Positions 1,122 through 40,924 of a DNA stretch of 40,924 bases are shown here, piece after piece; position 1 is the stretch's first letter, and each line of letters begins with the position of its first letter. The position numbers and the translations under genes are program-made. Below the pieces are notes generated by a model, which was given only the letters and a program-made list of their open reading frames with translations, did not search any database and was not told the DNA's origin. The DNA comes from an uncultured Ectothiorhodospiraceae bacterium (GTDB lineage Bacteria > Pseudomonadota > Gammaproteobacteria > Nitrococcales > Halorhodospiraceae): contig CAJXLI010000005.1 in assembly GCA_913055575.1 (NCBI GenBank), positions 1-40,924 on the forward strand, read 5' to 3'.

Positions 1122-1126
1122 GGCCC

Positions 1127-1916: not shown

Positions 1917-1921
1917 GGGTA

Positions 1922-2931: not shown

Positions 2932-2961
2932 ATTGTAGTACGATGGCCCCGCCAAGGGTAA
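2932..2961 (-). promoter_or_regulatory. Candidate sigma70-type promoter for lpxC
   Basis: Minus strand TTACCC-N18-TACAAT in the ftsZ-lpxC intergenic region; good -10, weak -35. Confidence 0.35.
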
Positions 2962-2982
2962 TGCGCTGCAACATAGGACTGC

Positions 2983-4140: not shown

Positions 4141-4188
4141 AGCGCTACCCTCCTTACGATCTCTGGCGCTTTTCCGCACCGGCGTCTA

Positions 4189-5427: not shown

Positions 5428-5441
5428 GGTCTGCTCCGCGT

Positions 5442-6218: not shown

Positions 6219-7129
6219 GGCAGCGCCTCCCCGAGGATGCGGGCCACAAGCTCATCGAAGCCGATCCCGGCCTGGGCCGCCGCGATGGGCACCAGGGAAT
6301 GGCCGGTCAGGCCTGGGACGGTGTTCACCTCCAGGAGCCACCAGGCGCCCTCGGCGTCGCGCATCACGTCCACCCGGCCCCAGCCGTAACCACCGACAGC
6401 CCGGAAGGCCTCCCGGCACAGGGCGTCGAGCTCGGCCTCCTCCGCCGCCTCGAGCCCGCTCGGGCAGTGGTGGCCGGTGTCGTGGGCCTGATACTTGGCC
6501 GCATAGTCGAAGAACGCGTGGGAGGTCTCCAGCCGGATCGAGGGCAAGGCGCGATCCCCGAGTAGCGCCACCGTGTACTCCACGCCCTCGACCCACTGCT
6601 CGGCAAGGACCTCGGTGTCGTAGACGGCCGCGGCGCGATAGGCGGCCGCCAGCTGGTCCGGGCCGGCTACCCGGGTCATGCCGAGGCTCGAGCCTTCCCG
6701 GAGCGGCTTGACGATGAGCGGCCAGCCCAACGCCTCCCCGGGCTCCGCATCCCCGGGCGCCAGCAGGCTGCCGGCCGGGGTGGGCAATCCGCTGCCCTGC
6801 CAGAGGCGCTTGCAGCGCCACTTGTCCATGCCCAGCGCCGAGCCGAGCACGCCGCTGCCGGTGTACGGCACGCCGAGCAGGTCGAGTACGCCCTGCACGG
6901 TCCCGTCCTCGCCGCCGCGGCCGTGCAGGGCGATAAAGACCCCATCGTAGCCGCGCAGCGCCTCCAGGGCGCGATCCCGCGGGTCGAAGGCCTCGGCGTC
7001 GTAGCCGCCGCGCTGCAGGGCAGCGAGCACGGCCCCGCCGCTGCGCAGCGAGATGTCGCGCTCGGCGGAGTCCCCGCCCATGAGCACGGCGATCCGCCCG
7101 GCGTCTTGGCGCGCAGGGATCCCCCTCAA
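6215..7129 (-). CDS. ddl: D-alanine--D-alanine ligase
   Basis: RIAVLMGGDSAERDISLRSGGAVLAAL; GRGGEDGTVQGVLDLLGVPYTGSGVLGSALGMDK; EVNTVPGLTGHS. Start inferred as the TTG at 7129 in a TTGA overlap with the murB stop; the track start at 7555 is an overextension. Confidence 0.95.
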   Translation of the reverse strand: MRGIPARQDAGRIAVLMGGDSAERDISLRSGGAVLAALQRGGYDAEAFDPRDRALEALRGYDGVFIALHGRGGEDGTVQGVLDLLGVPYTGSGVLGSALGMDKWRCKRLWQGSGLPTPAGSLLAPGDAEPGEALGWPLIVKPLREGSSLGMTRVAGPDQLAAAYRAAAVYDTEVLAEQWVEGVEYTVALLGDRALPSIRLETSHAFFDYAAKYQAHDTGHHCPSGLEAAEEAELDALCREAFRAVGGYGWGRVDVMRDAEGAWWLLEVNTVPGLTGHSLVPIAAAQAGIGFDELVARILGEALP

Positions 7130-8025
7130 GGCGCTGCCTCCCCCACGATATGGACCTCCGGCTCCAGGTGGACCCCGTGCACCGCTGCCACCCGGTGCTG
7201 GACGTGCTGCATCAGGGCCTCGATATCCGCGGCGCTGCCTCCCTCGTTGAGGATGAAATTGGCGTGGCGGGTGGATACGCGCGCGCCGCCCCGGCGCGCG
7301 CCCTTCAGGCCGGCGCTGTCGATGAGCCGTCCGGCCGCATCCCCCGGTGGATTCCGGAAGACCGAGCCGCAGGTCGCCTGGCCCACAGGCTGCGTGGCGT
7401 TGCGCTGGCGCAGCAGCGCGCGCACGGCCTCGCGCAGCCCTGCCACCGACCCCGGCTCCAGCGCCCAGGTAGCGGCGAGGAAGGACTCGCCCGCCGGGCC
7501 GCGGACACTGCGGTAGCCCACCTCGAAGTCGGCCGGCGCGCGGTGCCGGACGCATCCGGAGCGATCCACCGTCTCCACGGCGACGACGCGCTCCCAGGTG
7601 GTGCCGCCCCAGGCACCGGCGTTCAGCGCCAGTGCCCCGCCGGCGGTGCCGGGGATCCCGGCCAGGAACGCCAGCCCGCCCAGGCCCGCGCGCACCGCCT
7701 CGCGGGCCAGGCGCCCGCAGGCGACCCCGGCCTCGGCCCGGATCCGGTCGCCGGTAATAGCCAGGCCGTCGAGCCCGCCCTGGGTGAGTAGCACCGTGCC
7801 GGGCAGGCCGCCGTCACGGACCAGCAGGTTGCTCCCCAGGCCGCACCAGAGCAAGGGCTCCTGCGCCGGCAGGTCGGCCAGGAAGGCAACCAGGTCGGCG
7901 GCATCCGCCGGGCGGTAGACCCGCCGTCCCGGGCCGCCCACCCGCCATGTGGTATAGCCGGCCATGGGCTCGCGCTCGCGGAGCTCGCCCGGCTGCACCC
8001 GCCGGCGCCTCGGTACCGCCGTCAT
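7126..8025 (-). CDS. murB: UDP-N-acetylenolpyruvoylglucosamine reductase
   Basis: [65 protein letters not shown]; type I-like MurB. Confidence 0.95.
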
Positions 8026-9476
8026 GGGCCACCTCCCGGGGCTATCGCCTCGCCCAGACGGGCCGGCAGGCTACCGATACTGCCTGCCCCCAGGGTCAGG
8101 ACCACGTCCTGGGGCCGTAGCAGCCCAGCCAGCAGGCCGGGGATCTCCGGCAGCGCTTCGGCAAAGATCGGCTGCACGCCGCCCTGCTCGCGCACCGCCG
8201 CCGCCAGGGCCCGCCCGTCGAAACCGGGCAGGGGGGCCTCACCGGCGCCGTAGACCTCGGTGAGCACCAGCGCATCGGCACCGCTGAGCACCCGGGCGAA
8301 GTCGTGGAAGAGCTCCCGGGTACGGGAGTAGCGGTGCGGCTGGAAGACGACCACCAGGCGCCGCCCCGGCCAGGCCTCCCGGGCCGCCTGGAGCGTGGCC
8401 GCCAGCTCCCGCGGGTGGTGGGCGTAGTCGTCCACCAGCGTAGCGGTGCCCCCACCCGCCAGGGGGATATCCGGATAGACCTGGAAGCGCCGGCCGATGC
8501 CCTGGAAGTCGGCGAGTGCGCGCTGGATGGCCGGCACCGCCACGCCTAGCTCCCGCGCCAGGGCGATGGCGGCGGTGGCATTGAGCACGTTGTGCCGCCC
8601 CGGGAGGCTGACCTCGACCCGGAAGGATCCCCCGTCGCCCTCGTGGACGCGGAACCGGGTCCGGTGGCCGTCGGGCTCCAGGGCCTCGGCGCGGATATCG
8701 GCGTCCGCGGCGAAGCCGTAGGTCAGCACCGGCCGGCCGAGCTCGTCGCGCAGCCGGCGCACTTCCGGGTCGTCGAGGCACAGCACCGCCAGGCCGTAGA
8801 ACGGCAGGTGGTGCAGGAAGTCGATGAAAGTCCGGCGCAGCGTCTCGAAGTCGCCGCCATAGGTACCCAGGTGGTCGGCATCGATGTTGGTTACCGCCGC
8901 CATCACCGGCTTGAGGTGGAGGAAGGAGGCGTCGCTCTCGTCGGCCTCGGCCAACAGGTACGGGCCCGTACCGAGGCGCGCGTGGGCGCCGGCGCTGATC
9001 AGCCGGCCACCGATGACGAAGGTAGGGTCCAGGCCGCCCTCGGCGAGGCAGCTGGCGAGCAGCGACGTGGTCGTCGTCTTGCCGTGGGTGCCAGCTACCG
9101 CGACACCCTGGCGGAAGCGCATGAGCTCGGCCAGCATCTCCGCCCGCGGTACCACCGGCAGGCGCGCCCGGCGCGCCGCCTGGACCTCGACGTTGTCCTC
9201 GGTGACGGCGGTGGAGACGACCACGGCATCCGTGCCCTCGATATGCGCCGGATCGTGGCCGATGCGCACCGCCACCCCGAGCCCGATCAGGCGCTCCACC
9301 ACCGCGCCCGAGCGCACGTCGGAGCCGGTCACGGTAAAGCCGAGGTTGTGCAGGACCTCGGCGATCCCGCCCATACCGGCCCCGCCGATGCCCACGAAGT
9401 GGATCCGGTGCACCCGGCCGAAGGCGCCGCGGCCGGCGAGGCGCGGCTCGCGGGCGGGGGCGGCTGCATCAGCCAT
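8022..9476 (-). CDS. murC: UDP-N-acetylmuramate--L-alanine ligase
   Basis: [54 protein letters not shown]; start at ATG 9476 ([11 protein letters not shown]). Confidence 0.97.
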
Positions 9477-10542
9477 AGACCACCTCCTCGCAGACCGTCG
9501 CGATCCGCTCGGCGGCATCCGGACGCGCGACGCTGCGCGCCATGCCGGCCATCCCCGCGAGCCGCTCGCGGTCGGCGAGCAGCCCCGGCAGGAGCTGCGC
9601 CAGGACGCCTGCCTCGACGTCGGCCTGGGGGACCACCCGGGCAGCGCCGACCTCGCGCAGCTGCGCAGCATTGGCGGTCTGGTGGTCATCCACCGCCCAG
9701 GGCAGCGGTACCAGTACCGCCGGCACTCCGGCGGCGGCCAGCTCGGCCACGGTGAGCGCGCCGGCGCGGGCCACGACCAGGTCCGCCCAGCCGTAGGCGC
9801 CAGCCATGTCGTCGATGAAGGGGACGATCTCGGCGCTCACCCCCGCCTCGCGATACCCCGTACGCGCCTCCTCCAGGGTGGCCTCGCCGGCCTGGTGGCA
9901 GATCAGCGGCGCCTCGCCGGCCTCGGCCAGCGCCTGCGGCACCCATCGGTTGAGGGCGCGGGAGCCCTGGCTGCCGCCGAGGACCAGCAGGCGCGGCGGC
10001 CCGGCACGGCCGGCGAAGCGCTGCTGCGGCGCCGCCAAGGCGTGGATCGCCGCACGGGCGGGATTGCCCGTCCACTCGCCGCGCCGCTCCCCCAGAGCCC
10101 CAGGGAAGCCGGTGAGCACCCGCTGGCTGAGCCGCGCCAGGGTGCGGTTGGTCAGGCCGGCACGGGCATTCTGCTCGTGGATCACCAGCGGCCGCCGGGC
10201 CAAGCGCGCGGCCAGCCCCACCGGGCCGGCCACGTAGCCGCCCATGCCCAGGACAACGTCCGGTTGCCAGCGCCGCAGGGCCCGGCCGGCGACCGCCACG
10301 GCCCGGCCCAGGCGGGCGGGCAGGGCCGCCAGGGCACGCGGCCCCTTACCCCGCACCCCGCCGATCTCCAGCCACTCCGAGGCCAGGCCGGCGGCAGGCA
10401 CCGCATGCCCCTCGAGACCCTGGCGGGTACCCAGCCAGACCACCCGGTGACCGCGGCGCTGCAGCACCTCGGCCACCGCCAGGCCGGGGTAGACATGGCC
10501 GCCAGTTCCGCCGGCGGCGATAGCGACGGTCAAGGCGCTCAT
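9469..10542 (-). CDS. murG: UDP-N-acetylglucosamine--(pyrophosphoryl)-undecaprenol MurNAc-pentapeptide transferase
   Basis: [51 protein letters not shown]; start at ATG 10542. Confidence 0.97.
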
Positions 10543-11732
10543 GCCCCCTCCTCCGCGTCGATCGGGCGTACCCCGTCGGCACGTGCCTGCGCCAGCTCGT
10601 AGCCGCAGCGCAGCAGCAGCCCGACCATAGCGCCGGTGACCACGGCGCTGCTGCCGCCGTAGCTGAACAGGGGCAGCGTAAGCCCCTTGGTGGGCAGCAG
10701 GCCCGTGGCTACGCCCATGTTGATGAACGCCTGCAGCCCCAGCACCAGCCCCAGCGCCCAGGCGAGGTAGCCGGCGAAGGGGAGCCGGTGGCGGTGGCAC
10801 TGCCAGCCCAGGGCCATCGCCCGCCAGACGATGTAGGCGAACAGCAGCAGCACCGTGGTGACCCCCAGCAGCCCCAGCTCCTCGGCGAGGACCGAGAAGA
10901 CGAAGTCGGTGTGCGCCTCGGGCAGGTAGAAGAGCTTCTGGACGCTGCCGCCGAGCCCCACCCCCAGCCAGCCGCCGCGGCCGATGGCGATCAACGACTG
11001 GGTCAGCTGGAAGCCGGTATTGAACGGATCCGACCACGGGTCCATGAAGGCGGTCACCCGCTCCCAGCGGTACGGCGAGTAGAGCACCAGGCTCGCCGCC
11101 ACCCCGGCCAGGGCCGCCACCAGGGCTGCGAACCGCCACAACGGCACCCCAGCCAGGTAGAGCAGCCCCCCCACCATGGCCATGAGCATCGCCGCCGTGC
11201 CGAAATCCGGCTGGCACAGCAGCAGGAAGGCGCAGATCCCGGCGACCACCACCGGCGCCATGAAGGCCAGGGTCGAGGTGCGCAGCTGCCGCTGCCGGCG
11301 CACGAGGAAGCCGGCCACGTAGATCGCCACCAGCACCTTCACCGGCTCGGCTACCTGCATGTTGAACACCCCCAGGTGCAGCCAGCGCGCCGCGCCGTTG
11401 ACCTCCCGCCCGACCCCGGGGATGAGGACCAGCAAGAGCAGCCCCAGGGCCACGAGGGCCAGCGCCGGGCCGGTGCGCTGCCAGAGGCTCAGCGGCGCCT
11501 GCAGCGCCGCCGCTGCCACCCCGGCGCCGAGGACGGCGAAGAGGGCCTGGCGCTTGAAGTAGTAGAAGGGATCGCCGGTGGCCTGCTCCGCGACGGAGGT
11601 CGAGGTCGAGGCCACCATGACGAGGCCCAGCAAGGCGGCGGCGATCACCACGCCCACCAGGCGCCGGTCCAGTGCCGGCCACAGCGGCAGGTGCGCCGCG
11701 CGTCCGGAAGCCTCGGCGGCGTAGTCAGCCAT
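10539..11732 (-). CDS. ftsW: Peptidoglycan polymerase (SEDS family) FtsW
   Basis: Multi-TM; GRGGWLGVGLGGSVQKLFYLPEAHTDFVFSVLAEELGLLG; GLTLPLFSYGGSS; start at ATG 11732. Confidence 0.96.
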   Translation of the reverse strand: MADYAAEASGRAAHLPLWPALDRRLVGVVIAAALLGLVMVASTSTSVAEQATGDPFYYFKRQALFAVLGAGVAAAALQAPLSLWQRTGPALALVALGLLLLVLIPGVGREVNGAARWLHLGVFNMQVAEPVKVLVAIYVAGFLVRRQRQLRTSTLAFMAPVVVAGICAFLLLCQPDFGTAAMLMAMVGGLLYLAGVPLWRFAALVAALAGVAASLVLYSPYRWERVTAFMDPWSDPFNTGFQLTQSLIAIGRGGWLGVGLGGSVQKLFYLPEAHTDFVFSVLAEELGLLGVTTVLLLFAYIVWRAMALGWQCHRHRLPFAGYLAWALGLVLGLQAFINMGVATGLLPTKGLTLPLFSYGGSSAVVTGAMVGLLLRCGYELAQARADGVRPIDAEEGA

Positions 11733-13074
11733 GCGCCACCTCCCCGAGGACGGCCTCGCGGTAGGCCCTGCCGCGCTGCTCGAAGCCGCTGAAGGCGTCG
11801 AAGCTGGCGCAGGCCGGCGCCAGCAGCACCGCATCCCCGGACGCGGCCCGGCGGGCGGCCCGCGCGACGGCGTCGGACAGGCCGGCGGCACGCTCGGTGG
11901 GCGTGCGGCCGGCGATGGCTGCCTCGATGGCTGCGGCGTCTTCGCCGATGAGGATGACCGCCCGGGCGCGCTCGGCGCAGGCCCGGGCCAGCGGCTGGAA
12001 ATCGGCGCCCTTGCCCTGCCCACCGGCGATGAGCACCACCGGCCGCTGCAGCCCCTCGAGGGCTGCTACGGCGGCGCCGACATTGGTCGCCTTGGAGTCG
12101 TTGATCCACTGCACACCGCGCCACTGGCCCACCGGCTCCATGCGGTGGGGCAAGCCGGTAAAACGGCGCAGGACCGCCTGCTGGGCGGCCACCCCGATCC
12201 CCCAGGCGTCGGCCAGGGCCATGGCGGCCAGGGCGTTGGCGCAGTGGGCGCGCCCCGGCACCGGCAGCTCGGCGGCCGCCACGCGCCGCTCGTCGCCGGC
12301 GGCCAGCCACGCCGCGCCGTCCGCCTCCACCAGGCGGTAGCCGGCGGCGGCCCCACCGCTCAGGGCAAAGGAGCGCACGCCGGCGCCCTCGCCGGCCATG
12401 GCCGCGGTCCAGGGATCGTCGGCGTTGACCACCGCCGTCTCCACCCCGTCGAGGATGCGCGCCTTGGCGGCGGCGTAGGCGGACAGGTCGTCGTAGCGGT
12501 CCATGTGATCGGCGCTGACGTTGAGCACGGCGGCGGCCCGAGGGCGGAACCCCGGGCAGGCCTCCAGCTGGAAGCTGGAGACCTCCAGCACGTAGCCGTC
12601 CCGGGGCGCCGCCTCGAGGAGCTCCAGCGCCGGGGTGCCGAGATTGCCGCCCACGGCCACATCCCGGCCGTCGGCCCGGGCCATCTCGCCGAGCAGGGTG
12701 ACCACGGTGCTCTTGCCGTTGGAGCCGGTCACCGCGCAGATCGGCGCCTCGGCGGCCTCGGCGAAGAGGGTCAGCTCCCCGATCACCGGTCGGCCGGCAG
12801 CGCGCAGCTCGGCGAGCACCCCGCAGCGCTGGTCCAGGCCGGGGCTCACCACGACCCGCTCGGCGCCGAGCAGGGTCGCGCGGTCCAGGGCGCCGACGAC
12901 CGCAGGCACCTCCGGCCACTCCGCCCGCAGCTGCGCCAGCCCCGGCGGCTCATGGCGGCTGTCGACGGCGGCCACCGCCTCGCCCTGGCGGCGCAGGTGG
13001 CGGACGCAGGCCAGCCCCGTCGCCCCGAGGCCGGCGACCGCGGTATAGCCGTTGTGCCGATCGCCTGCTGCCAT
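11725..13074 (-). CDS. murD: UDP-N-acetylmuramoylalanine--D-glutamate ligase
   Basis: [62 protein letters not shown]; start at ATG 13074. Confidence 0.96.
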   Translation of the reverse strand: MAAGDRHNGYTAVAGLGATGLACVRHLRRQGEAVAAVDSRHEPPGLAQLRAEWPEVPAVVGALDRATLLGAERVVVSPGLDQRCGVLAELRAAGRPVIGELTLFAEAAEAPICAVTGSNGKSTVVTLLGEMARADGRDVAVGGNLGTPALELLEAAPRDGYVLEVSSFQLEACPGFRPRAAAVLNVSADHMDRYDDLSAYAAAKARILDGVETAVVNADDPWTAAMAGEGAGVRSFALSGGAAAGYRLVEADGAAWLAAGDERRVAAAELPVPGRAHCANALAAMALADAWGIGVAAQQAVLRRFTGLPHRMEPVGQWRGVQWINDSKATNVGAAVAALEGLQRPVVLIAGGQGKGADFQPLARACAERARAVILIGEDAAAIEAAIAGRTPTERAAGLSDAVARAARRAASGDAVLLAPACASFDAFSGFEQRGRAYREAVLGEVAHG

Positions 13075-14156
13075 CAGCGGACCTTGAGCAGCGCCAGGCC
13101 GACGAGGACCAGGACCACGGTGATGATCCAGAAGCGCACGATGACCCGTGGCTCCGGCCAGCCCTTGAGCTCGTAGTGGTGGTGGAGCGGCGCCATGCGG
13201 AACACCCGCCGGCCGGTCAGCTTGTAGGACAGGACCTGGACCATCACCGAGACGGTCTCCAGGACAAATACCCCGCCCATGATGAACAGCACGATCTCCT
13301 GGCGCACGGCCACGGCGATGACCCCGAGGGCCGCGCCCAGGGAGAGCGCCCCCACATCGCCCATGAACACCTGGGCCGGGTAGGTGTTGTACCAGAGGAA
13401 CCCGAGCCCGGCGCCGACGATGGCACCGCAGAAGATGACCAGCTCGCCCACGCCCGGCAGCGAAGGGATGTTCAGGTAATCGGCGAAGATCTGGTGGCCC
13501 GTGGCGTAGGCGAACACCGCCAGACCCCCGGCGACGAGGACCGTCGGCATGATCGCCAGGCCGTCGAGCCCGTCGGTGAGGTTGACCGCGTTGGAGCTGC
13601 CGACGATCACCACCGTGGCCAGGGCGATGAAGCCGCCCCCGAGGGGGATAGTCCACTCCTTGAACAACGGCAGCACCAGGCTGGTCTCGACGGGCTCGAC
13701 GGCCGTGGCGAAGAGGAAACCGCTCGCCAGCAGCGCAGCGAGTAGCTGCAGTCCGAACTTGGTGTGCGCCCGTAGGCCCTGGCTGTCCTGGCGAATCAGC
13801 TTGAGGGTGTCGTCGGCACCGCCGATCCCCCCGAAGGCGAGGGTGACCAGCAGGACCGTCCATACGTAGCGATTGGTCAGGTCCGCCCACAGCAGGGTGG
13901 AGACGGCGATGGCGAGGAGGATCAGGGCACCGCCCATGGTCGGGGTACCGGTCTTCTGCAGGTGCGCCTCGGGCCCGTCGTCCCGGACCTGCTGCCCGAT
14001 CTGGTGGAGCACCAGGCGCTGAATCACCGCCGGGCCGATCAGCAGCGCAATCCCCAGGGCCGTGAGCACCCCGAGGATGGTCCGGAACGTGATGTACTGG
14101 AAGACGTTGAAGCCGGAATGGAACGCCTCCAGCAGCATGGCTACGTGGTAGAGCAC
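13074..14156 (-). CDS. mraY: Phospho-N-acetylmuramoyl-pentapeptide-transferase
   Basis: Multi-[54 protein letters not shown]. Confidence 0.98.
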
Positions 14157-15508
14157 CTGGATGACCTCCCCTGCTCAGGATCCTCGACAACCAGCGCCCG
14201 GGCCACTCGCTCCATGGCGGCCGAGCGCGAGCCCTTGATCAGCACAGCGGCGTCCGCCGTCAGCTCCGCAGCGCACGCCTCGATGAGCGCTTGGTGATCC
14301 GGGAAGCTGCGCCCGCCCGGACCGAAGGCCTCTGCCGCGGGGGCCGCCGCGTCACCGACCGTCCATAGCCGGGCCACACCGGCGGCGCGCGCCTGCTCGC
14401 CGGCACGCCGGTGCCACGGCGCGCTCTCCGCCCCGAGCTCGCCCATGCTCCCCAGCAGCAGCCACGCCGGGCCGTCGAGCTCGCGCAGCACATCGATGGC
14501 CGCCCGCAGGCTGCCCGGGTTAGCGTTGTAGGTATCATCGATGACCCAGCCGCCGTGGCAGCCGGGGCGCAGCTGCAGGCGGCCGGGCACGGGCCGGGCC
14601 GCGGCCACCGCCGAGAGGATCGCGCTCGGCGGGGCCGCCACGGCGCAGGCGCAGGCGGCCGCCGCGGCGACATTGCCGGCGTTGTGGGCGCCGAGCAGCG
14701 GCGTCGGCGCCGCCATCCAGCCGCTACCGAGGTCCAGCTCCAGGCGCCGCGCGTGGCCGCGGTAGCGGATCTGCCCACTGTCCGCGCCGAAGGTCAGGCA
14801 GCGCCGGGCCCCGGCCAGCTCGCGCCAGAGCCCGCAGAAATCGTCGTCGGCATTGATCACGGCCACGCTGTCGCGCGCCAACCCCTCGAAGAGCTCGCCC
14901 TTGACGCGGGCGACCCCGGCGACCGAGCCGAACCCGGCCAGGTGGGCCGGACCGGCGTTGGTGACCACCCCGACATCCGGGTGTGCCCAGGCGGTGAGCT
15001 GCGCGATCTCGCCGGGCGCGTTGGCGCCGAGCTCGATGACCGCGTAGCGGTGCTCGGCGCCGAGCCGGCAGAGCGTCTCGGGGACGCCGAGCAGATTGTT
15101 GCGGTTGCCCTCGGTAGCGAGGGTAGGCCCGAGCTCGCCGAGCATGCTGGCGAGCAGGTCCTTGACCGTGGTCTTGCCGTTGCTGCCGGTAACCGCCACC
15201 AGGCGGGCCGGGCTGCGGCGCCGGCACTCGGCACCGAGTGCCGCCAGCGCTGCCGCCGGATCCGCCACCACGACCGTGGGCAGCGCCGCCACCGGCCTTT
15301 GCCCCAGCATCGCCACGGCGCCGCGGCCGGCGGCGTCGGCAGCGAAGTCGTGGCCGTCCGCCCGGGCGCCGGGCAGCGCCACGAACAGCGATCCCGGCCC
15401 GGCGCGCCGGCTGTCTAGGGCCACATCGTGGACCGGGGCCGCCGGCTCCTCGCCGGCCAGCCGGCCGCCGGTAATCGCCGCGATCTGGGCCAGGCCTAGC
15501 GGGTCCAT
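14141..15508 (-). CDS. murF: UDP-N-acetylmuramoyl-tripeptide--D-alanyl-D-alanine ligase
   Basis: [50 protein letters not shown]. Confidence 0.96.
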
Positions 15509-17013
15509 GGCACCCCCCCAGGCCCGCTCAGCCAGCGCGCGGCCTCCTCCCGGTCGGAGAATGGGGTGGCGCCATCGGCCCTCTCCTGGAGCGTCTCGCG
15601 CCCCTTGCCGGCGATGAGCACCGCGTCCGCCGGGCCGGCAGCCTCGATGGCCGAGCGGATGGCCTCGCCACGATCCGCGACGGGCTCGGCAGCCTCGCCG
15701 GCCCCGGCGGCGATCGCGTCACGGATCGCCGAGGGCGGCTCGGTGCGGGGATTGTCGTCCGTAACCACGACCCGGTCGGCTAGGCGGGCGGCCACTTCGC
15801 CCATGAGGGGGCGCTTGCCGGGATCCCGATCGCCGCCGCAGCCGAAGACCACCGTCAGCCGCCCATCGGTGTGCTCGCGCAGGGCCGCCAGCGCCTGCTC
15901 GAGCGCGCCGGGCGTGTGGGCGTAATCCACGACGACCAGGGGGTCGTCGGCACCGCCGGGGAGACGCTCCATGCGTCCCGGCACCGGCCACAGGCCGGCC
16001 AGGCGCTCCAGGGCCGCATCCAGCGGCCGCCCGAGGGCGAGGGCCGCCCCCAGGGCGGCGAGGGCATTGGCGACGTTGAAGCGGCCGAGCAGGGGCAGGT
16101 GGACCGACCGGCGGACCCCGCCGAGCCGCAGTGCCACGCGGAGGCCGTCCGGGAGGGGGGTTACCGCCTCCGCCGCCAGGTCCGCGGACGCCCCGGCGGC
16201 GCTGTAGGTGAACACAGCCCCGGCGGCGCGCTCGTAGAGGCGCTGCCCCAGCTCGTCGTCGAGGTTCAACACCCGCGCGCGCAGCGTAGGCAGCTCGAAT
16301 AGCCGGCTCTTGGCGTCGGCGTAGGCCTCCATGGAGCCGTGGTAGTCCAGGTGATCCCGCCCGAGCTGGGTCAGCACCGCCAGGTCCACCGCCGTACCGG
16401 CCAGGCGCCCCTGCTCCAGGGCGTGGGAGGAGGCCTCCATGGCGATCCCACTGGCGCCCGCGTCCCGGCAAGCAGCGAGGGCCCGCTGCAGCGCCGCGGC
16501 GTCGGGCGTGGTCAGGTCGGCGGGCTGGAGGCGATCGATACGGCCGTACCCCAGGGTCCCGACCACCCCCCAGTGGGCCTCAGGCTCGCTGAGCAGCTGC
16601 GCCACGAAGTGGGTCACGGAGGTCTTGCCGTCCGTACCGGTAACCGCGATCACCGCCAGGTCCCGGGACGGCTCGCGGTAGAGCCGGCCCGCGATCGCGC
16701 TCAGGTGGCGCCGCAACCCGGAAACGGCGACCAGCGGCACCCCGGCCGCGGCGGTGGCGGTGGCAGCCTCGCCCGGGTCGCCGTCACTCTCCGGATCCCA
16801 GGCGACGGCTGCCGCGCCGGCCGACAGGGCGTCGGCGACGAAGGCCAGGCCGTGGCATCGCTGCCCGGACAGCGCCACGAAGAGATCGCCGGGCACGAGG
16901 CGCCGCGTGTCGAGGCTCATGCCGTGGATGGCCACCGCCGGTAGCGCCTCGCTGACCCAGGGCGCCAGGAGCCAGCGTAGCGTTACGGGCTGCCCGAGCG
17001 ACGCCGTGCTCAT
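15496..17013 (-). CDS. murE: UDP-N-acetylmuramoyl-L-alanyl-D-glutamate--2,6-diaminopimelate ligase
   Basis: VTGTDGKTSVTHFVAQLL; MEASSHALEQGR; TDDNPRTEPP (DNPR motif). Confidence 0.96.
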   Translation of the reverse strand: MSTASLGQPVTLRWLLAPWVSEALPAVAIHGMSLDTRRLVPGDLFVALSGQRCHGLAFVADALSAGAAAVAWDPESDGDPGEAATATAAAGVPLVAVSGLRRHLSAIAGRLYREPSRDLAVIAVTGTDGKTSVTHFVAQLLSEPEAHWGVVGTLGYGRIDRLQPADLTTPDAAALQRALAACRDAGASGIAMEASSHALEQGRLAGTAVDLAVLTQLGRDHLDYHGSMEAYADAKSRLFELPTLRARVLNLDDELGQRLYERAAGAVFTYSAAGASADLAAEAVTPLPDGLRVALRLGGVRRSVHLPLLGRFNVANALAALGAALALGRPLDAALERLAGLWPVPGRMERLPGGADDPLVVVDYAHTPGALEQALAALREHTDGRLTVVFGCGGDRDPGKRPLMGEVAARLADRVVVTDDNPRTEPPSAIRDAIAAGAGEAAEPVADRGEAIRSAIEAAGPADAVLIAGKGRETLQERADGATPFSDREEAARWLSGPGGVPWTR

Positions 17014-29105: not shown

Positions 29106-30347
29106 ATGAGACTACCAGGACCATCACGGTGGCGGCTATTGGGGCGCCAGGGTACCGCGTGGCTGCGCTTCCTGGTGGGCTATACCGCCCTGGGCGTGGT
29201 CCTGGCCCTGGCGATCGTCTGGCTCAAGCCGGGCCTGCTGGGCCCGCTGACCCCGCGGGTCGAGGTCAACCAGACCCAGGCGCAGGCCGAGCCGGCCCGC
29301 TCCCGTGGCACCGCCACGCCAGCGCCGGCCCCCGCCTCCTACGCCGAGGCCGTGGCGCGCGCCGCGCCTGCCGTGGTGAACATCTTCACCGTCAAGCAGG
29401 TCACGGAGCAACTGATACCGCCCGGGCTCGATACTCCCCTCTACCGCCACTTCTTCGGCGAGCCACCGACCCGGGAGCGGCAGCGCACGGAGACGAGCCT
29501 CGGCTCCGGCGTCATCGTCGCCGAGGACGGCTACGTGGTGACCAACCACCACGTCATCGACAACGCCGAGCAGATCCAGGTCCTGCTCGCCGACAGCCGC
29601 CAGCGGGCGGCCACCGTGGTCGGCCGGGACCCGGCGACGGACCTGGCGGTGCTGCGTATCGACGCCGCGGAGCTGCCGGTGATCACCTTCGCCGAGGATG
29701 GCCAGGCCCGGGTCGGCGACGTCGTCCTCGCCATCGGCAACCCCTTCGGGGTCGGGCAGACGGTAACGCAGGGGATCATCAGCGCCACCGGCCGGGATCA
29801 GCTCGGCCTGTCCACCTTCGAGAACTTCATCCAGACCGATGCGGCGATCAACCCCGGCAATTCCGGCGGGGCGCTGATCGACGCCCGAGGGGACCTGGTG
29901 GGCATCAACACAGCCATCTTCAGCGATAGCGGCGGCTCCCAGGGGATCGGCTTCGCCATCCCGGCAGGGATCGCGCAGACGGTCACGGCCGACCTGATCG
30001 AGCACGGCCGGGTAGTACGCGGCTGGCTCGGGGTCCAGGCCCAGCGGCTCACCCCGGCGCTAGCCGAGTCGTTCGGGGTCGCCCCCGACACCGAGGGCGT
30101 CGGCGTCACGGACGTCTTTCCCGGAGGGCCAGCGGACCGCGCCGGTATCCAGCCGGGCGATGTCATCACCCGGCTCGGCGAGCGCGCGATCCGCGACGTG
30201 CAGGACTTGCTGCGGGCGGCGAGCCGAGGCGCACCGGGCACGGAGATGGCGGTCACCGGCTACCGGGACGGCGAGCGATTCTCCAGCCAGGTTACGCTCG
30301 GCGATCGCCCGGAGATGGCGCAGCCGCGCCAGCCGGGCCAGCGCTGA
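29106..30347 (+). CDS. Trypsin-like serine protease with one PDZ domain, DegS/AlgW-like
   Basis: N-terminal TM; SLGSGVIVAEDGYVVTNHHVI; DLAVLRID; INPGNSGGALID (catalytic Ser); a single PDZ (GVTDVFPGGPADRAGIQPGDVITRLG). Confidence 0.93.
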   Translation: MRLPGPSRWRLLGRQGTAWLRFLVGYTALGVVLALAIVWLKPGLLGPLTPRVEVNQTQAQAEPARSRGTATPAPAPASYAEAVARAAPAVVNIFTVKQVTEQLIPPGLDTPLYRHFFGEPPTRERQRTETSLGSGVIVAEDGYVVTNHHVIDNAEQIQVLLADSRQRAATVVGRDPATDLAVLRIDAAELPVITFAEDGQARVGDVVLAIGNPFGVGQTVTQGIISATGRDQLGLSTFENFIQTDAAINPGNSGGALIDARGDLVGINTAIFSDSGGSQGIGFAIPAGIAQTVTADLIEHGRVVRGWLGVQAQRLTPALAESFGVAPDTEGVGVTDVFPGGPADRAGIQPGDVITRLGERAIRDVQDLLRAASRGAPGTEMAVTGYRDGERFSSQVTLGDRPEMAQPRQPGQR

Positions 30348-30387
30348 GCCGGGCCGACACGACGCCGCCCGGGCGCCAGGCCCGGCT
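30347..30387. terminator. Stem-loop between convergent degS-like and hisC genes
   Basis: Perfect 9-bp stem AGCCGGGCC...GGCCCGGCT with an inner palindrome CGCCCGGGCG; no U-tract. Confidence 0.4.
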
Positions 30388-30398
30388 CCCGGGATCGC

Positions 30399-31493
30399 CT
30401 ACGCCGCCGCGAGGGCCTCCGCCAGGGCCTCCAGGAAGCGGTCATTCTCCTCCGGCCGGCCCACGGTCACCCGCAGGCAGTCCGCCAGCCGCGGGTGGCT
30501 GCCGTGGAGGGACTTGATCAGCACCCCCCGCTCCAGTAGCCCGCGGTACACCGCCTCTCCGCACCCGGGCGGGACACGGAAGGTGAGGAAATTGGTCTGC
30601 GTCGGCCAGACCTGCTGGACACCGGGCACCGCCGGCAGCGCCTCCGCCAGCCGCCCGCGCTCCGCGAGCACGTGGGACACCGCCCGATCCAGGGCCTGCC
30701 GGTGCTCCAGGGCGAAGGCGGCGCTCGCCTGGGCTGGGACGCTCAGATTGTAGGGGAGCCGGCACTTCTCCAGCTCCTCCAGCCAGGCGGGATGGCCGAT
30801 GAGCGCGCCCACCCGGAGGCCGGCCAGGCCGACCTTGGAGAGCGTCCGCAGGAGCAGGCAATTGGGGTGGTCGAGCACCCGCGGCAGGAAGGTGGTATCG
30901 GCGTAGGGGGCGTAGGCCTCATCGACCACCACCAGGCCGTCCGCCTGCGCCACCACCTCGGCCACGGCATCCAGGTCCAGGCCGTTGCCGGTGGGATTGT
31001 TGGGGTGCGCCAGGTAGGTCACCGCGGGCTGATAGGCCGCCAGGGCCTCCAGGGTCGCCGGCAGGTCGAGCTCGAAATCCGGCCCCAGCGGGACCTCGGC
31101 GTACGTGGCACCCGTGACCTCGGCGATGATCCGGTACATGGCGAAGCTCGGCGCCGGGGCCAGGACGGTACGGCCGCTGCCGGCCACCGCCAGGTCGATG
31201 AGCTGGATGAGCTCGTCGGAGCCGTTGCCGAGGAGCAACCCGGCGTCCGCCGGGACGCCGAGGCCATCGCGGAGCAGCGGCTTGAGCTCGCGTGCCGCCG
31301 CATCGGGATAGCGGTTGATGGCCACCGTGCGCAGGCGCTCCAGCCAGGCCTCTTCCAGCGCCCCCGGCCAAGGCCAGGGGTTCTCCATGGCGTCCAGCTT
31401 GATGACCTCCCCCGGATCGGCCACGCGGTAGCCGGTCAGCGACTGGACCTGGGGCCGCACCCAGCGGGCGGCGCGCGCGGCGGCGTCACTCAC
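30399..31493 (-). CDS. hisC: Histidinol-phosphate aminotransferase
   Basis: [52 protein letters not shown] (PLP Lys). GTG start at 31493 or the track start at 31514. Confidence 0.94.
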
Positions 31494-32802
31494 TGCTGCC
31501 CTCCTGCTGGCCACGGTAGTCGGCGGAGCGGGCGTGGGCCGTCAGCCCCTCGCCCCGGGCGAGCTCCGCAGCGGGGCGACTCAGCCTCGCGGCCCCCTGC
31601 GGCGAGCAGCAGAGGGTCGTCGAGCGCTTCTGGAAGTCGTAGACGCCGAGCGGCGAGGCGAACCGGGCAGTGCGCGAGGTGGGCAGGGTGTGGTTGGGCC
31701 CGGCGCAGTAGTCGCCGAGGGCCTCGGCGCTGTAGTGGCCCAGGAAGATGGCGCCGGCGTGGCGGATGCCGCCGACCAGCTGGTCCGGCTCGGCCACCGA
31801 CAGCTCCAGGTGCTCCGGGGCCACGTAGTTGGCGACCTGCTGCGCCTCCTGCAGATCGCGGACGCAGATCAGGGCGCCGCGCTCGGCCAGCGAGGCGCGG
31901 ATGATCTCCGAGCGCTCCAGGTCCGGCAGCAGGCGCTCCATGGCCGCCTGAACCTGGTCGAGGAAGACGAAGTCCGGGCAGACCAGCAGGGCCTGGGCCT
32001 CCTCGTCGTGCTCGGCCTGGGAGAACAGATCCATGGCGATCCACTCGGGATCCGCCTGGCCGTCGCTGATGATCAGCACCTCGGAGGGACCGGCGATCAT
32101 GTCGATGCCCACCACGCCATAGACCCGGCGCTTGGCCTCGGCGACGTAGGCGTTACCGGGGCCGACGATCTTGTCCACGCTGGGCACGGTCTCGGTGCCG
32201 TAGGCCAGCGCCGCCACCGCCTGCGCCCCGCCAAGCGTCAGGATCCGGTCGATGCCGGCGACGTGGGCGGCTGCGAGCACCAGCGGCGAGAGCTCGCCGT
32301 CTGGCGCCGGCACTGTCATGGTGATCTCCCCGACCCCGGCGACCCGCGCCGGGACGGCGCTCATCAACACCGACGAGGGGTAGGCCGCCTTGCCGCCGGG
32401 GACATAGACCCCGACCCGGTCCAGCGCGCTGACCTGCTGGCCCAGCCGGTTGCCGTCGGCGTCCTCGTACGCCCAGGAGCTCAGGCGCTGGTGCTCGGCG
32501 TAGGCGCGGATCCGCTCGGCGGCCTGCTCCAGGGCCTCGCGTCTCTCCGGGGCGATACGCTCGAAAGCAGCAGCCATCTCCGCGGCCGGCACCTCCAGCT
32601 CCGCCACCGATTCGGCCGCCCGGCCGTCGAGCCGGCGCGTATAGTCGAGCAACGCCGCGTCACCACCGCTGCGCACGCCGTCGACGACCTCGGCGACGCG
32701 CCGCTCGACGGCAGCACCCGGCTGGCTGCCCCAGCTGGTCAGGGCCTCGAGGCTGTCCCAGAAGTCGGGCTGCGTGGTGCTCACCCGCTTGATCTCGACC
32801 AT
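31486..32802 (-). CDS. hisD: Histidinol dehydrogenase
   Basis: [90 protein letters not shown]. Confidence 0.97.
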
Positions 32803-32832
32803 GGCTGTCCCCTCTCGTCTGCGTGGCGTCCG

Positions 32833-33477
32833 TTAGCTGGCTGCTGCGGCCTGCGACGCGTCGGCTAGATCGTCGATCAGCGCGCCGACCCCCCCGGGGC
32901 TCGTCTTCAGCGAGGCCTTGTTCACGACCAGCCGGGAGCTGATCTCCGTGATCGGCTCCAGCGGCGCCAGGCCGTTGGCGCGCAAGGTGTTGCCGGTGTC
33001 CACTAGATCCACGATCAGGTCCGCCATGCCCACCAGGGGCGCCAGCTCCATGGAGCCGTAGAGCTTGATGATCTCGGCCTGGCGGCCCTGCTCGGCGAAG
33101 TGCTGCCGCGCCAGGTGGACGAACTTGGTCGCCACCCGCGGCCGCCGCCCGGCAGGCGGGCCGTCCGGGGGCCCGGCGACCATGAGCCGGCAGCGGGCGA
33201 TACCCAGATCCACCGGGTCGTAGAGCCCCTCGCCGCCGTGCTCCAGGAGCACGTCGCGCCCGGCCACCCCCAGGTCGGCGCCGCCGTGCTCGACGTAGGT
33301 GGGCACGTCCGAGGCGCGCACCACCAGCAGCCGCACGTCGTCACGGTTCGTGCCGATGATCAGCCGGCGGCTGGCGTCCGGGTCCTCCTGCGGCTCGATC
33401 CCGCAGCGCGCCAGCAGCGGCAGGGTCTCCTCCAAGATCCGCCCCTTCGACAGGGCGAGGGTCAGCATTCGGCTCAT
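32833..33477 (-). CDS. hisG: ATP phosphoribosyltransferase, short form (HisG-S)
   Basis: [54 protein letters not shown]; 214 aa without the C-terminal regulatory domain; ATG at 33477. Confidence 0.95.
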
Positions 33478-33509
33478 GGTCGTCACTCGGTCTCCGTTGG
33501 GGTCCTGGG

Positions 33510-35022
<1,513 letters not shown>

Positions 35023-35084
35023 GGGGGCCTCTCCTTCCGACGCTGGCCGCGACTCCCGCTGCAGGGCGCTGAATTATACGCGAT

Positions 35085-35402
35085 TCAGGCCGGGTCGTCG
35101 GCGATATCGAACACCGCCTGCACCCCGCTCGCCTGGACGATGGCGAGCATCTGCTGCGGCACGTGGCGCAGCCGCAGGTTGCCGCCCTGCGCGCGCGCCT
35201 GCCGGGTCCAATCGATGAGCAGCGCCACGCCGGCGCTGTCGGTGCGCTCGACGGCGGCCAGGTCGATCTCCCGGCTCACCGCCCCGCCCGCCTCGAAGAT
35301 CGCCCGGCCCTGGCGCCACAGCACAGGCGCATTGGCGAAATCCAGCGCACCGGCCAGGCGCAGGGTGCCGTCGGCGCCGCGCTCGAGGCTGGCAAGGCTC
35401 AT
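35085..35402 (-). CDS. mlaB: STAS-domain protein MlaB
   Basis: GALDFANAPVLWRQG...IDLAAVERTDSAGVALLIDWTRQARAQG; position in the mla operon. Confidence 0.88.
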   Translation of the reverse strand: MSLASLERGADGTLRLAGALDFANAPVLWRQGRAIFEAGGAVSREIDLAAVERTDSAGVALLIDWTRQARAQGGNLRLRHVPQQMLAIVQASGVQAVFDIADDPA

Positions 35403-36022
35403 TCGAAACCGAGCTCCCGGTTGCGCGCAGCCATCTCGTCAATCACCGTCTCAAGATCCTTCTCCCGCAGCCGGGACCGGAAGTCCTCGCGGTAATTGTG
35501 GATCAGGCTCACGCCCTCGGCGGTGACATCCACCAGCTTCCAGGCGCCATCCTGCTGCTCCAGGCGATACAGGATGCGCGTCGGGCTACCGCTGCCGGTA
35601 TCGACCTCCATGCCCACCTGGGCGCCGCCATCCCGGGGCCGGCTACCGAGGATGCGGATCGCCACATCCCCCTGGTAGTCCTCCATGCGGGAGGCGTAGG
35701 TCCGCAGCAGGCTGCGCTGGAACTCGCGGATGAACCGCTGCCGCGTCTCGGCGTCGGCCTTGCGCCAGTACGGGCCGAGGATGTGCGCACCGATCCGGTC
35801 GTAGGCGATGTGCGGCTCGATGAGCGGCGCCAGCGCCTCGTAGAGGGCCACCGGATCGTCGCTGAGCGCCTCGCCGCGCTCATCGAGCACCTCCAGGAGC
35901 TCGTGGGTGACCTCATCCACGACCGTCTCCGGGCCGGCCGACTGGGCCACCGTCGCACCGGCCAGGGCCAGGGCCGCCGCCAGGGCGAGCCCGATGCCGC
36001 CGAGCCATCTATACCTGAGCAT
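35399..36022 (-). CDS. mlaC: Phospholipid-binding periplasmic protein MlaC
   Basis: Signal peptide; RQRFIREFQRSLLRTYASRMEDYQGDVAIRI; KLVDVTAEGVSLIHNYREDFRSRL. Confidence 0.93.
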   Translation of the reverse strand: MLRYRWLGGIGLALAAALALAGATVAQSAGPETVVDEVTHELLEVLDERGEALSDDPVALYEALAPLIEPHIAYDRIGAHILGPYWRKADAETRQRFIREFQRSLLRTYASRMEDYQGDVAIRILGSRPRDGGAQVGMEVDTGSGSPTRILYRLEQQDGAWKLVDVTAEGVSLIHNYREDFRSRLREKDLETVIDEMAARNRELGFE

Positions 36023-36054
36023 CTTCACTACCTCCAAGCGCCGCCGGCACGTCC

Positions 36055-36510
36055 CTACTCCTGGGTGTTCGTGAGGAACTGGCCGAGGAGCCGCTCGAGC
36101 ACGACGGCGGACTGCGTATCCGCGATACGGTCGCCGTCATCCAGGGACTCGCTCTCCCAGCCGGGCTGCAGGCCCACGTACTGCTCGCCTAGCAGGCCAG
36201 CGGTGTAGATGGCCGCCGTGCTGTCTTCCGGGATGCTGTCGTAGCGCTCCTTGATGCGCATATGCACGGTCGCCCGGTGGCTCGCCGGATCCAGCTCGAT
36301 AGCCTCGACGCGCCCGATGCGGACGCCCGCCATGCTGACCGGCGCCTGCTCGCGCAGGCTGCCCACATTCTCGAACTTGGCGGTAACCTGGTAGCCGGTG
36401 CCCTGGCGCAGCTCCGCCAGGCCGCTGACCTGGAGGGCCAGGACCAGCAGCGCGGCCAGGCCGGCAGCCACGAACAACCCTACCCCAATCTCCACGAGCC
36501 GCTGATTCAT
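36055..36510 (-). CDS. mlaD: Outer-membrane lipid asymmetry transporter MCE protein MlaD
   Basis: N-terminal TM; YQVTAKFENVGSLREQAPVSMAGVRIGRVEAIELD (MCE domain); GLLGEQYVGLQPG. Confidence 0.95.
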   Translation of the reverse strand: MNQRLVEIGVGLFVAAGLAALLVLALQVSGLAELRQGTGYQVTAKFENVGSLREQAPVSMAGVRIGRVEAIELDPASHRATVHMRIKERYDSIPEDSTAAIYTAGLLGEQYVGLQPGWESESLDDGDRIADTQSAVVLERLLGQFLTNTQE

Positions 36511-36523
36511 ACCCTGTGCTCCG

Positions 36524-37300
36524 TCATTCGAACATCAGCGCGGTGAGCAGGAAGTCGAGCCCGAGCACGGCGAGGGAGGCGTGCACCACGCCGCGCGTGG
36601 TCGCCCTGCTCACCCCGCTGGATGTCGGCACCGCCGTGTAGCCCTTGTGGAGGGTGATCCAGCCGGCGAGGAGGCCGAAGGCGGCGCTCTTGATCACGCC
36701 GTTGAGGATATCATCCCGGATCGTGACGGCGTTCTGCATATTGGACCAGAAGGGGCCGCTGTCGACCCCGATCATACCCACCGTGACCAGGTAGCCGCCG
36801 AGGATCCCGATCACGCTGAACACCGCGGTGAGCAGGGGGACGGCGATCAACGCGGCGAAGAACCGCGGCGCCAGGATGCGCCGCTCCGGATCCACCGCCA
36901 TCATCTCCATGCTGGAGAGCTGCTCGGTGGCCTTCATCAGCCCTACCTCCGCGGTCAGGGACGAGCCGGCTCGCCCGGCGAAGAGCAGCGCCGTGACCAC
37001 CGGGCCGAGCTCGCGGACCAGGGACAGCGCCACCATGGTCCCGACGGCCTCGGTAGCCCCGAAATCGGCGAGGGTGTAGTAGCCCTGCAGGCCAAGGACC
37101 ATGCCGATGAACAGCGCCGAGACCAGGATGATCACCATGGACTGGACGCCAACGGCGTAGAGCTGCTCGATCAGCAGCCGCGGGCGCAGCGCCACCGCCG
37201 GCGCTGCACGCAGGATGCGCGCCACGAGCAGGACCGCCTCGCCCAGCCCGCGCAGCCCCTCCAGGGTCCGGGCGCCCAGCATCCGCAGCAGCCCGATCAC
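36524..37300 (-). CDS. mlaE: ABC transporter permease MlaE
   Basis: GMVLGLQGYYTLADFGATEAVGTMVALSLVRELGPVVTALLFAGRAGSSLTAEVGLMKATEQL. Confidence 0.96.
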   Translation of the reverse strand: MIGLLRMLGARTLEGLRGLGEAVLLVARILRAAPAVALRPRLLIEQLYAVGVQSMVIILVSALFIGMVLGLQGYYTLADFGATEAVGTMVALSLVRELGPVVTALLFAGRAGSSLTAEVGLMKATEQLSSMEMMAVDPERRILAPRFFAALIAVPLLTAVFSVIGILGGYLVTVGMIGVDSGPFWSNMQNAVTIRDDILNGVIKSAAFGLLAGWITLHKGYTAVPTSSGVSRATTRGVVHASLAVLGLDFLLTALMFE

Positions 37301-38118
37301 GGTGCCCCCCTCCCCGCCAGGTCCGCGGCCAGATCCGGGGCCGGGTAGTGGAACGGCACCGGGCCATCCGGGCGGGCGTCGAGGAACTGCCGCACCGAGG
37401 GCTCCGCCGAGGCCTGCAGGCTAGCCGGGCTGCCCTCCGCCACCAGCGCCCCGTCGGCCAGCAGATAGACGTAGTCGGCGATGGCCAGCGTCTCAGAGAC
37501 GTCGTGGGAGACGACCACGGAGGTCAGCCCGAGGGTGTCATTGAGCCGCCGTATAAGGTCCACCAGGACGCCCATCGTGATCGGATCCTGCCCCGCGAAG
37601 GGCTCGTCGTACATGAGCAGCACCGGATCCAGGGCGATGGCGCGGGCCATCGCTACCCGCCGGGCCATGCCGCCGGAGAGCTCCGATGGCATCAGGTGGC
37701 GGGCACCGCGCAGCCCCACCGCCTCGAGCTTGAGCAAGACCAGGGTCTCCAGCAGCGACTCGGGCAGGCTGGTGTGCTCACGCACGGGGAAGGCGACATT
37801 CTCGAATACGGACAGGTGCGTAAACAGGGCGCCGCTCTGGAAGAGGATGCCCATCTGCTGGCGCAGCTGGTACAGCGCCCGCCTGCCCAGGGCGGGGACC
37901 TCCTGGCCCATCACCTCCACGGTGCCGCCCTGGGGGTGGAGCTGTCCGCCGAGCAACCGCAGCAGCGTCGTCTTGCCGCTGCCGCTCGGGCCCATGATGG
38001 CGGTGACCTGACCACGCCGGATGGTCATGTCCACGCCGTCGAAGATCGACCGCCCCCCGCGCCGGAAGTGCAGCCCGCGCACGGCAGCGAGGGGGTCACC
38101 TTGTTCTACGGCGGTCAT
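37297..38118 (-). CDS. mlaF: ABC transporter ATP-binding protein MlaF
   Basis: Walker A GPSGSGKTTLL; signature LSGGMARRVAMARAIALDP; Walker B LLMYDEPFAGQDPIT. Confidence 0.96.
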   Translation of the reverse strand: MTAVEQGDPLAAVRGLHFRRGGRSIFDGVDMTIRRGQVTAIMGPSGSGKTTLLRLLGGQLHPQGGTVEVMGQEVPALGRRALYQLRQQMGILFQSGALFTHLSVFENVAFPVREHTSLPESLLETLVLLKLEAVGLRGARHLMPSELSGGMARRVAMARAIALDPVLLMYDEPFAGQDPITMGVLVDLIRRLNDTLGLTSVVVSHDVSETLAIADYVYLLADGALVAEGSPASLQASAEPSVRQFLDARPDGPVPFHYPAPDLAADLAGRGAP

Positions 38119-38204
38119 GGCTCGATCCTTTCCTCCAGGATGCCGGCAGTATCAATCTCGCCGGAGAGACCGTCAATTGCACCCGGAGCAGCGGAGGCTT
38201 GGGG

Positions 38205-38210
38205 TAGAAT
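38205..38210 (+). promoter_or_regulatory. Candidate -10 element (TAGAAT) for kdsD
   Basis: GGGGTAGAATAGACGCATG: -10-like hexamer ends 6 nt before the ATG; no visible -35 at normal spacing and no RBS. Confidence 0.35.
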
Positions 38211-38216
38211 AGACGC

Positions 38217-38921
38217 ATGACCCCTATACACACCCTGATCGAGCAGCACCAGGCCGGCGATACGGAGCCGGGCTCCGGTGAGCGGCTCCAGGCCCTCGGC
38301 CGCGCCGTGCTCCGGCTCGAGGCGGACGCCGTCACCCGTCTCGCCGAGCGGCTCGGCCCGTCGTTCAGCGAGGCGTGCCGGTATATGCTCGCCTGCCGCG
38401 GCCGGGTCATCGTCACCGGCATGGGCAAGTCCGGGCACATCGGCTCCAAGATCGCCGCCACCCTGGCGAGCACCGGCACGCCGGCCTTCTTCGTCCACCC
38501 CGGCGAGGCGAGCCACGGCGACCTGGGCATGATCACCGCCGACGACGTGATCGTCGCCCTTTCCAACTCCGGCGAGACGGACGAGATCACCGCCCTCCTG
38601 CCGCTCATCAAGCGCCTCGGGGTGCCGCTCATCGCCCTGACCGGCCGCCCCGGCTCCACCCTGGCGGAGGCGGCCACCGCGCACCTGGACGTGGGCGTCG
38701 AGCAGGAGGCCTGCCCCCTGGGCCTGGCCCCTACGGCGAGCACCACGGCGACCCTCGCCGCAGGCGACGCCCTAGCCGTCGCCCTGCTCGACAGCCGGGG
38801 GTTCACCGCCGAGGACTTCGCCCGTTCCCACCCCGGCGGCAAGCTCGGCCGGCGCCTGCTGCTGCGCATCGAGGACGTGATGCAGACCGGCGAGCGTATC
38901 CCGCGGGTCCGGCCCGGCAGC
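38217..38921 (+). CDS. kdsD: Arabinose-5-phosphate isomerase KdsD, truncated after the SIS domain
   Basis: RVIVTGMGKSGHIGSKIAATLASTGTPAFFVHPGEASHGDLGMIT; ALSNSGETDEI; FARSHPGGKLGRRLLLRIEDVMQTGERIPRVRPGS, then homology ends abruptly and the ORF enters a nonsense tail (KKRLMSANRCRGIFCCP...). Confidence 0.92.
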
Positions 38922-40051
38922 AAGAAGCGGCTTATGTCAGCAAACCGGTGTCGCGGTATTTTCTGCTGCCCGAAAACATCTCGAAAGTCCGGATTTACGC
39001 ACCGGAGCGCGTACTGGTCACCGGTTACAACCGCCCGCTGAAATTGCCCAAAACGACCCGGGTGCCGCAAGATTATTACGCAAAGACCCGGCACGCGGAA
39101 GGTCAGCCCACCTGGTTTCTGTTTTCCCCGGAAAACTATCGTGCGCTTTACATCAACCATCGTTCGATCCTGCTCACGCTCCAGTATCATCCGCCCGAAC
39201 GCGACCCCCGGCTGTTGAAAGGCCAATACCGCTGGGAGGCGTTTCGACCGGCCGGCGACTGGAGCGGGGCGTTTTTGTTTGCGCCCCGCGATACCGGCCA
39301 GCCCCTGCGAGAAGAAGCGTTGAACGCAGCCTACGCCTCCATTGCCGTAAACCGTCGCGAGTCCGTCGAACTGCAGTCCCCGGCGGCGTTAAACGTCATC
39401 CGGCCGGACCTGGTCTATTTCGCTGATGACACGGACCACGACGCATCGATTCAATGCTTTGTCAACGGCCGTCTGCATTTTACCCACGCCATAACCGGCC
39501 CGCGGGGGCGGTGGACGCTGCCGCCCGTGTTTTCGGGAGCAAACCACATCCGGATCACAGCCCCGGACAAAACGCAGGTCTACTTGAATCATGTCGTGTC
39601 AAAACCCCCGGCCCGACTGCTGCGCTTTGCCAATCGCATCGACGGCGAGGGGCTGTCCTTTGATTTTTACAAACAGACCGCCGGCAAAGAAAACCTTTCC
39701 CTGAAGTGGTTTTTCCCTTCTGCCGAAACCGGGCAATCGGTTTTCCGGGTTGAACTTGCCCCGGCCATCGATCGCCCGCTGGGGCCTTATAAACAATTGA
39801 GCCTGCTTGAACGCAAGTTTGTCGTCACCCCGCCCGAAGAAAGCAAAAAGGTACCGGTGATGCAATCCGAAACCGAATTCGTGACAACCGGACAGACATT
39901 TTTCTACCCGTTCGGCGACGACCTGCCGCCGGGCCAGTACCGGGTCAATATCGAACGTGTCAGCGGGCCGGATGGATATTTGCAGATGTATCGGGTGCTG
40001 CCCGGCCGTTTTCCCGAACGCACGATGAAAAAGGAGCCGATCAGGCCATGA
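38921..40051 (+). CDS. Unknown protein, N-terminus missing at the composition junction
   Basis: In-frame part of track ORF 38375..40051 from about 38921: QEAAYVSKPVSRYFLLPENISKVRIYAPERVLVTGYNRPLKLPK...; different codon usage from upstream; stop overlaps the next start (ATGA). Upstream part of the track ORF is an out-of-frame reading of kdsD. Confidence 0.7.
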   Translation, partial: QEAAYVSKPVSRYFLLPENISKVRIYAPERVLVTGYNRPLKLPKTTRVPQDYYAKTRHAEGQPTWFLFSPENYRALYINHRSILLTLQYHPPERDPRLLKGQYRWEAFRPAGDWSGAFLFAPRDTGQPLREEALNAAYASIAVNRRESVELQSPAALNVIRPDLVYFADDTDHDASIQCFVNGRLHFTHAITGPRGRWTLPPVFSGANHIRITAPDKTQVYLNHVVSKPPARLLRFANRIDGEGLSFDFYKQTAGKENLSLKWFFPSAETGQSVFRVELAPAIDRPLGPYKQLSLLERKFVVTPPEESKKVPVMQSETEFVTTGQTFFYPFGDDLPPGQYRVNIERVSGPDGYLQMYRVLPGRFPERTMKKEPIRP

Positions 40052-40924
40052 AATGGATGAAATCATTGTTTTTGTGCGCACTGGCCGGGTTGCTGCTTAG
40101 CTTCCCGCAGCCGGAGGCTTGCGCCGGGCCGCCAACGAAAATCGCCGAGCTCTACAGCCAGGCCCGGGGCGGAAGCACGTTTTACCATCCCGATGACGCG
40201 GAAATGGCCCGCGCCCGTCGGTTGTTTTCGCAGATGTTTGCCGGCGCTTTTTTCGAAGACGAGGCTGAAAACCCGGCGTGGAAAACCCTGGGTTTTCGTG
40301 CCGTTGCCGTCCGGCAGGACGGACGGCGATATGTTGCCGTCATGGAGGATGGGGCCAAAAAGGGGCGCGGGTTCTACCTGTTTGCCGCCCGGCCGGAAAG
40401 CCGTACCGCCCTGATGGTGCCGCACGGGCAAAAGGACCTGCGGACCGGCGACATCGGGATGGCGTTGCTGTCTGCCGGTGAATTTGTCGGCGGGGCGCTT
40501 AATACCATGCCACGATACGCCGAAGACGGGAGTAAAGGGCAGCAGCAGGATATGGCCCATGCCGAAGACACCTATTTTGTCGCCTATACGCGGGCGTTTG
40601 CCGACGTCTTTCCCAGGGGCCGGCTGGTACAGATCCACGGCTTTGCCAGTAAAAAGCGCAAAACCGAAGCCGGCCGGCAGGCCGATGTGATCATCAGCAG
40701 CGGCAGCGCCATCCTGCCGCCGGCCATATTCGAACTGAAAAATTGCCTGGGGCAGACCCAATTCAATATCGCCGTCTATCCGCTGGAAGTCCGTGAACTC
40801 GGGGGCACGACGAACATCAGCGGCAATGTTTTACAAAGCATGGGGCACAGCGGGTTTGTCCATTTCGAAATCAGTTATCCGCTGCGAAAGCGGCTGACGG
40901 CCAGTCCGGATCTTTTGGAAATTT
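40048..40924 (+). CDS. Secreted protein of unknown function, possible metallo-amidohydrolase-like; 3' end off window
   Basis: Own translation: MKWMKSLFLCALAGLLLSFPQPEACAGPPTKIAELYSQARGGSTFYHPDDAEMARARRLFSQMFAGAFFEDE...VPHGQKDLRTGDIG...AHAEDTYFVAYTRAFADVFPRGRLVQIHGF...GHSGFVHFEISYPLRKRL. Missing from the ORF track because it is open at the window end. Confidence 0.7.
   Translation, partial: MKWMKSLFLCALAGLLLSFPQPEACAGPPTKIAELYSQARGGSTFYHPDDAEMARARRLFSQMFAGAFFEDEAENPAWKTLGFRAVAVRQDGRRYVAVMEDGAKKGRGFYLFAARPESRTALMVPHGQKDLRTGDIGMALLSAGEFVGGALNTMPRYAEDGSKGQQQDMAHAEDTYFVAYTRAFADVFPRGRLVQIHGFASKKRKTEAGRQADVIISSGSAILPPAIFELKNCLGQTQFNIAVYPLEVRELGGTTNISGNVLQSMGHSGFVHFEISYPLRKRLTASPDLLEI

Follow-up and report, generated by a model that had tools for sequence, protein, structure and literature searches.

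Misassembly into chimeric contigs has been named among the principal sources of error in MAGs by the work on GUNC (PMC8201837). Chimeric contigs are also common: in one benchmark, MEGAHIT assemblies had 22.15 of them per genome and SPAdes assemblies 2.63 (PMC11261854). The window analysed here, a stretch of 40,924 nucleotides, is the whole of contig C5 (40.9 kb) from a metagenome bin of 2.0 Mb in 155 contigs (83.7% complete, 3.1% contaminated). Like chimeric MAG contigs, it shifts abruptly in both composition and gene content, has both partner genes cut partway through and breaks near a contig end, and its bin, as with such contigs, already mixes two strains. A second point of comparison is the CapC/PgsC-type (poly-gamma-glutamate-like) capsule cluster, as the genes beyond the break, in what we call the tail, have homologues on contig C3 of the same bin that adjoin a double-CapC protein; unlike such a cluster, the tail itself has no CapC or PgsB gene and holds an accessory pair only. 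We consider a chimeric assembly joint, an ordinary artefact and not a biological fusion, to be the best explanation of the break, with a probability of roughly 0.93.

The break falls in kdsD, a lipopolysaccharide gene. Its product reads as KdsD as far as ...GERIPRVRPGS, with all similarity gone after ...RVRPG, and the NCBIfam KdsD profile is covered only at positions 12–223 of 328, leaving the SIS domain complete and the C-terminal ~106 residues missing. An intact KdsD combines the SIS domain with the full C-terminal part, and the latter is lacking in the window copy and present in a 341-aa copy on contig C2, to which the window protein is 88% identical up to residue 238. Direct reading of the DNA places the start of the foreign frame (QQEAAYVSKP..., QQEAAYVSKPVSRYFLLPEN...) at 38,918, one register off kdsD and without a start codon, and similarity to its longer homologue begins at residue 3 of the frame. 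The two genes are thus cut within the same few bases and are mutually out of frame. Together, the point at which identity to C2 ends and the start of the foreign-frame homology bracket the joint to six bases (Table 1), only 2.0 kb from the end of the contig. These results agree with the original prediction that kdsD is cut mid-gene at an abrupt junction and is followed by a frame one register away that opens with no start codon.

Table 1. Features at and around the joint, in window coordinates.
Feature	Position	Strand	Basis
Duplicated stretch; copy of the second species-level strain is C2:1–9298	29638..38922	+	blastn 91.06%
kdsD 5' part (arabinose-5-phosphate isomerase, SIS domain)	38217..38921	+	Pfam SIS 3.3e-32; NCBIfam KdsD 5.4e-98
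Foreign gene's C-terminal ~375 codons (ORF1), 5' half missing	38918..40048	+	Aligns to residues 438–813 of C3 813-aa homologue
Joint (bracket of uncertainty)	38919..38924	.	C2 identity end 38,922; ORF1 homology start 38,924; no relative beyond 38,922
Start of next foreign gene (ORF2), runs off contig end	40048..40923	+	37% identity to C3 312-aa homologue

The first 9,298 bases of C2 are collinear with the window over 9,309 alignment columns, and the match ends at the joint. Beyond that point C2 continues through the intact kdsD into kdsC, lptC, lptA, lptB and rpoN (names after kdsD assigned from gene order and sequence resemblance). This part of C2 had no other match in the bin except for a short ABC-transporter-like similarity, and a search of the bin for a second copy of the first 20 kb of the window found none. 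One locus is thus present in the bin in two versions, ~91% identical to each other; the bin therefore combines two species-level strains, and its gene content is a mosaic.

Related genomes gave the same picture as C2. DNA of kdsD was matched in 54 of 58 relative genomes (55 of 59 when the bin is counted), and across all 59 no match other than that of the window itself passed query position 706, which corresponds to window position 38,922. The fusion is therefore confined to one contig. None of the relative genomes carried the tail DNA, and in the seven relatives examined kdsD was always full-length, with kdsC directly after it in six. The joint is real in the sequence: it cuts both genes, and neither the relatives nor the second copy in the bin have it. 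The same kdsD fusion had been named as something to look for in relatives, and none of the 58 shows it; it is absent from C2 as well. The advice not to assign 38,921–40,924 to the upstream organism stands.

The composition of the DNA also changes across the joint. GC content is 72% upstream and 59% in the tail, with a local fall from ~0.70–0.78 to ~0.59, and GC3 drops from 0.95 to 0.69. The codons AAA, GAA, TTT and TAT, said from the letters alone to become common, rise from 0–1 to 21–46 per thousand codons. In the tetranucleotide profile, which had been proposed as a check together with GC3, the tail lies at a distance of 0.574, outside the range of every 2-kb piece of C5 (maximum 0.405) and C2 (maximum 0.316). 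Composition alone is no proof of foreign origin, because low-GC islands occur in the bin (C3:1–7.4 kb, ~55–60% GC). The island on C3 (100–7333, minus strand) carries a Zorya type I-like defence set, as detected by PADLOC, comprising ZorB, ZorC, ZorD and a ZorA-like protein of 448 aa whose N terminus is shorter than the models; part of a DUF499 gene adjoins this set.

ORF1 appears to be truncated at the joint, with its 5' half missing, since its full-length homologues span ~810–850 codons; those in genomes other than the bin are open frames of 827–852 aa with 27–32% identity to it. The foreign partner is therefore also broken inside a gene, as had been proposed. ORF2 begins with a signal-peptide-like N terminus. 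Four genomes of another family, and C3 itself, show the two genes in the same order, with identities of 31–38% between the tail and C3 proteins and of 27–38% to the other homologues. On C3 the pair adjoins a 1,054-aa protein with two CapC domains, an arrangement that suggests, from sequence, that the tail genes are an accessory pair of a CapC/PgsC-type capsule-polymer cluster. The ORF2 (312-aa) family is absent from 114 relatives, the diverged native pair on C3 being the exception, and a search of the genus gave no further genome with it; it also occurs in scattered genomes of two other families of the phylum. The cluster on C3 occupies ~16 kb (427–16361 within C3:15000–34000, minus strand), with GC of up to 80%, and encodes the double-CapC protein, the 813-aa and 312-aa accessory proteins, and proteins of 1,816 aa and 1,464 aa, the last with HEAT repeats and, by eye, a PgsB-like look. 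The right flank of the contig is native to the genus.

A real event in the cell, in which illegitimate recombination or horizontal transfer truncated kdsD by bringing in an exopolymer gene cluster of 59% GC, would fit the presence of other low-GC islands in the bin and of a related cluster on C3. We regard such an event as very unlikely. No mobility genes, repeats or tRNA lie at the edge: no tRNA was found there, the two tail ORFs matched no mobile-element family, the only repeats at the edge were short, chance-like matches, and no integrase, transposase, attachment site or flanking repeat was found in the 2.0 kb between the joint and the end of the contig, which bears out the original prediction on this point. 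An insertion of this kind would, moreover, have had to bring in a gene that was itself severed midway, at the point where kdsD breaks, would split kdsD from the kdsC–lptC–lptA–lptB–rpoN genes that follow it on C2, and is shown by no relative.

Searches for the source of the tail returned distant homologues at best. Scans of genome contigs, with both tail proteins joined and with two-sequence alignment, returned no relative; plasmids and phages gave no match to the tail, and PHROGs, Pfam, NCBIfam and the PDB gave nothing for its proteins. Among 399 genomes drawn from the phylum, distant homologues were present in two families; across the searches, the nearest homologues of the tail proteins were no more than 38% identical. 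Searching a whole family turned up nothing above 33% identity for ORF1, and we rejected that family as the source; we likewise rejected the bin's own C3 cluster on identity (31–38%) and GC content (59% in the tail versus 75–77%). Neither C3 nor the other homologue-bearing genomes are the source, as the identities are only 27–38%. The diverged version of the tail gene pair that the bin has on C3 counts against the chimera to some extent, since it makes the pathway one that this lineage does possess. A native rearrangement joining kdsD to the organism's own exopolymer cluster, either the locus on C3 or another copy of that locus, is the least probable reading of all. In its favour, C3 has counterparts of both tail genes, in matching order, and one flank of that contig is native to the genus; against it, the same divergence in identity and GC content excludes C3 as the source, and no second contig in the bin matches the tail.

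A chimeric joint is favoured because both genes are cut, the contig ends 2 kb after the break, no mobile element lies there, the second strain keeps an intact locus and no relative shares the fusion. This central proposal of the original prediction thus draws support from the intact C2 locus, the relatives and the shift in composition, but its suggestion that the two sides were joined at a short shared string found no support in the bin or in the intact kdsD copies. A shared k-mer is typical of an assembly-graph misjoin, whereas a chimeric read does not need one. That string, GGCAGCAAGAAGCGG, a 15-mer at the joint, is absent from the intact kdsD of C2 and of seven relatives; extended by one 5' base, its sole occurrence in the bin is at the joint, and its matches with two mismatches are as frequent as those of a reversed-pattern control. 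Overlap with the intact C2 kdsD at the joint amounts to at most about 4 bases (GGCA). As the 15-mer was seen neither in the intact kdsD copies nor elsewhere in the bin, we infer that collapse of the assembly graph at a repeat is less likely than a chimeric read or a join made at low coverage.

On this reading the joint would have been created during library preparation or during assembly, outside any cell. Bases 1 to ~38,919 would derive from a GC-rich relative of the bin's other contigs, which we take to be gammaproteobacterial from its gene set, and bases ~38,924 to 40,924 from a different, third organism, carrying part of the putative CapC/PgsC-type accessory gene pair. The join inside kdsD near the contig end would most likely reflect a chimeric read or a low-coverage path in an assembly probably already fragmented by the two ~91%-identical strains in the sample.

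If a recent transfer of an exopolymer cluster into kdsD were real, it would disrupt KDO synthesis in this strain. With a chimeric joint as the preferred explanation, the last 2 kb of the contig should be masked and the contig given a quality flag, and the kdsD of the window strain should not be called disrupted.
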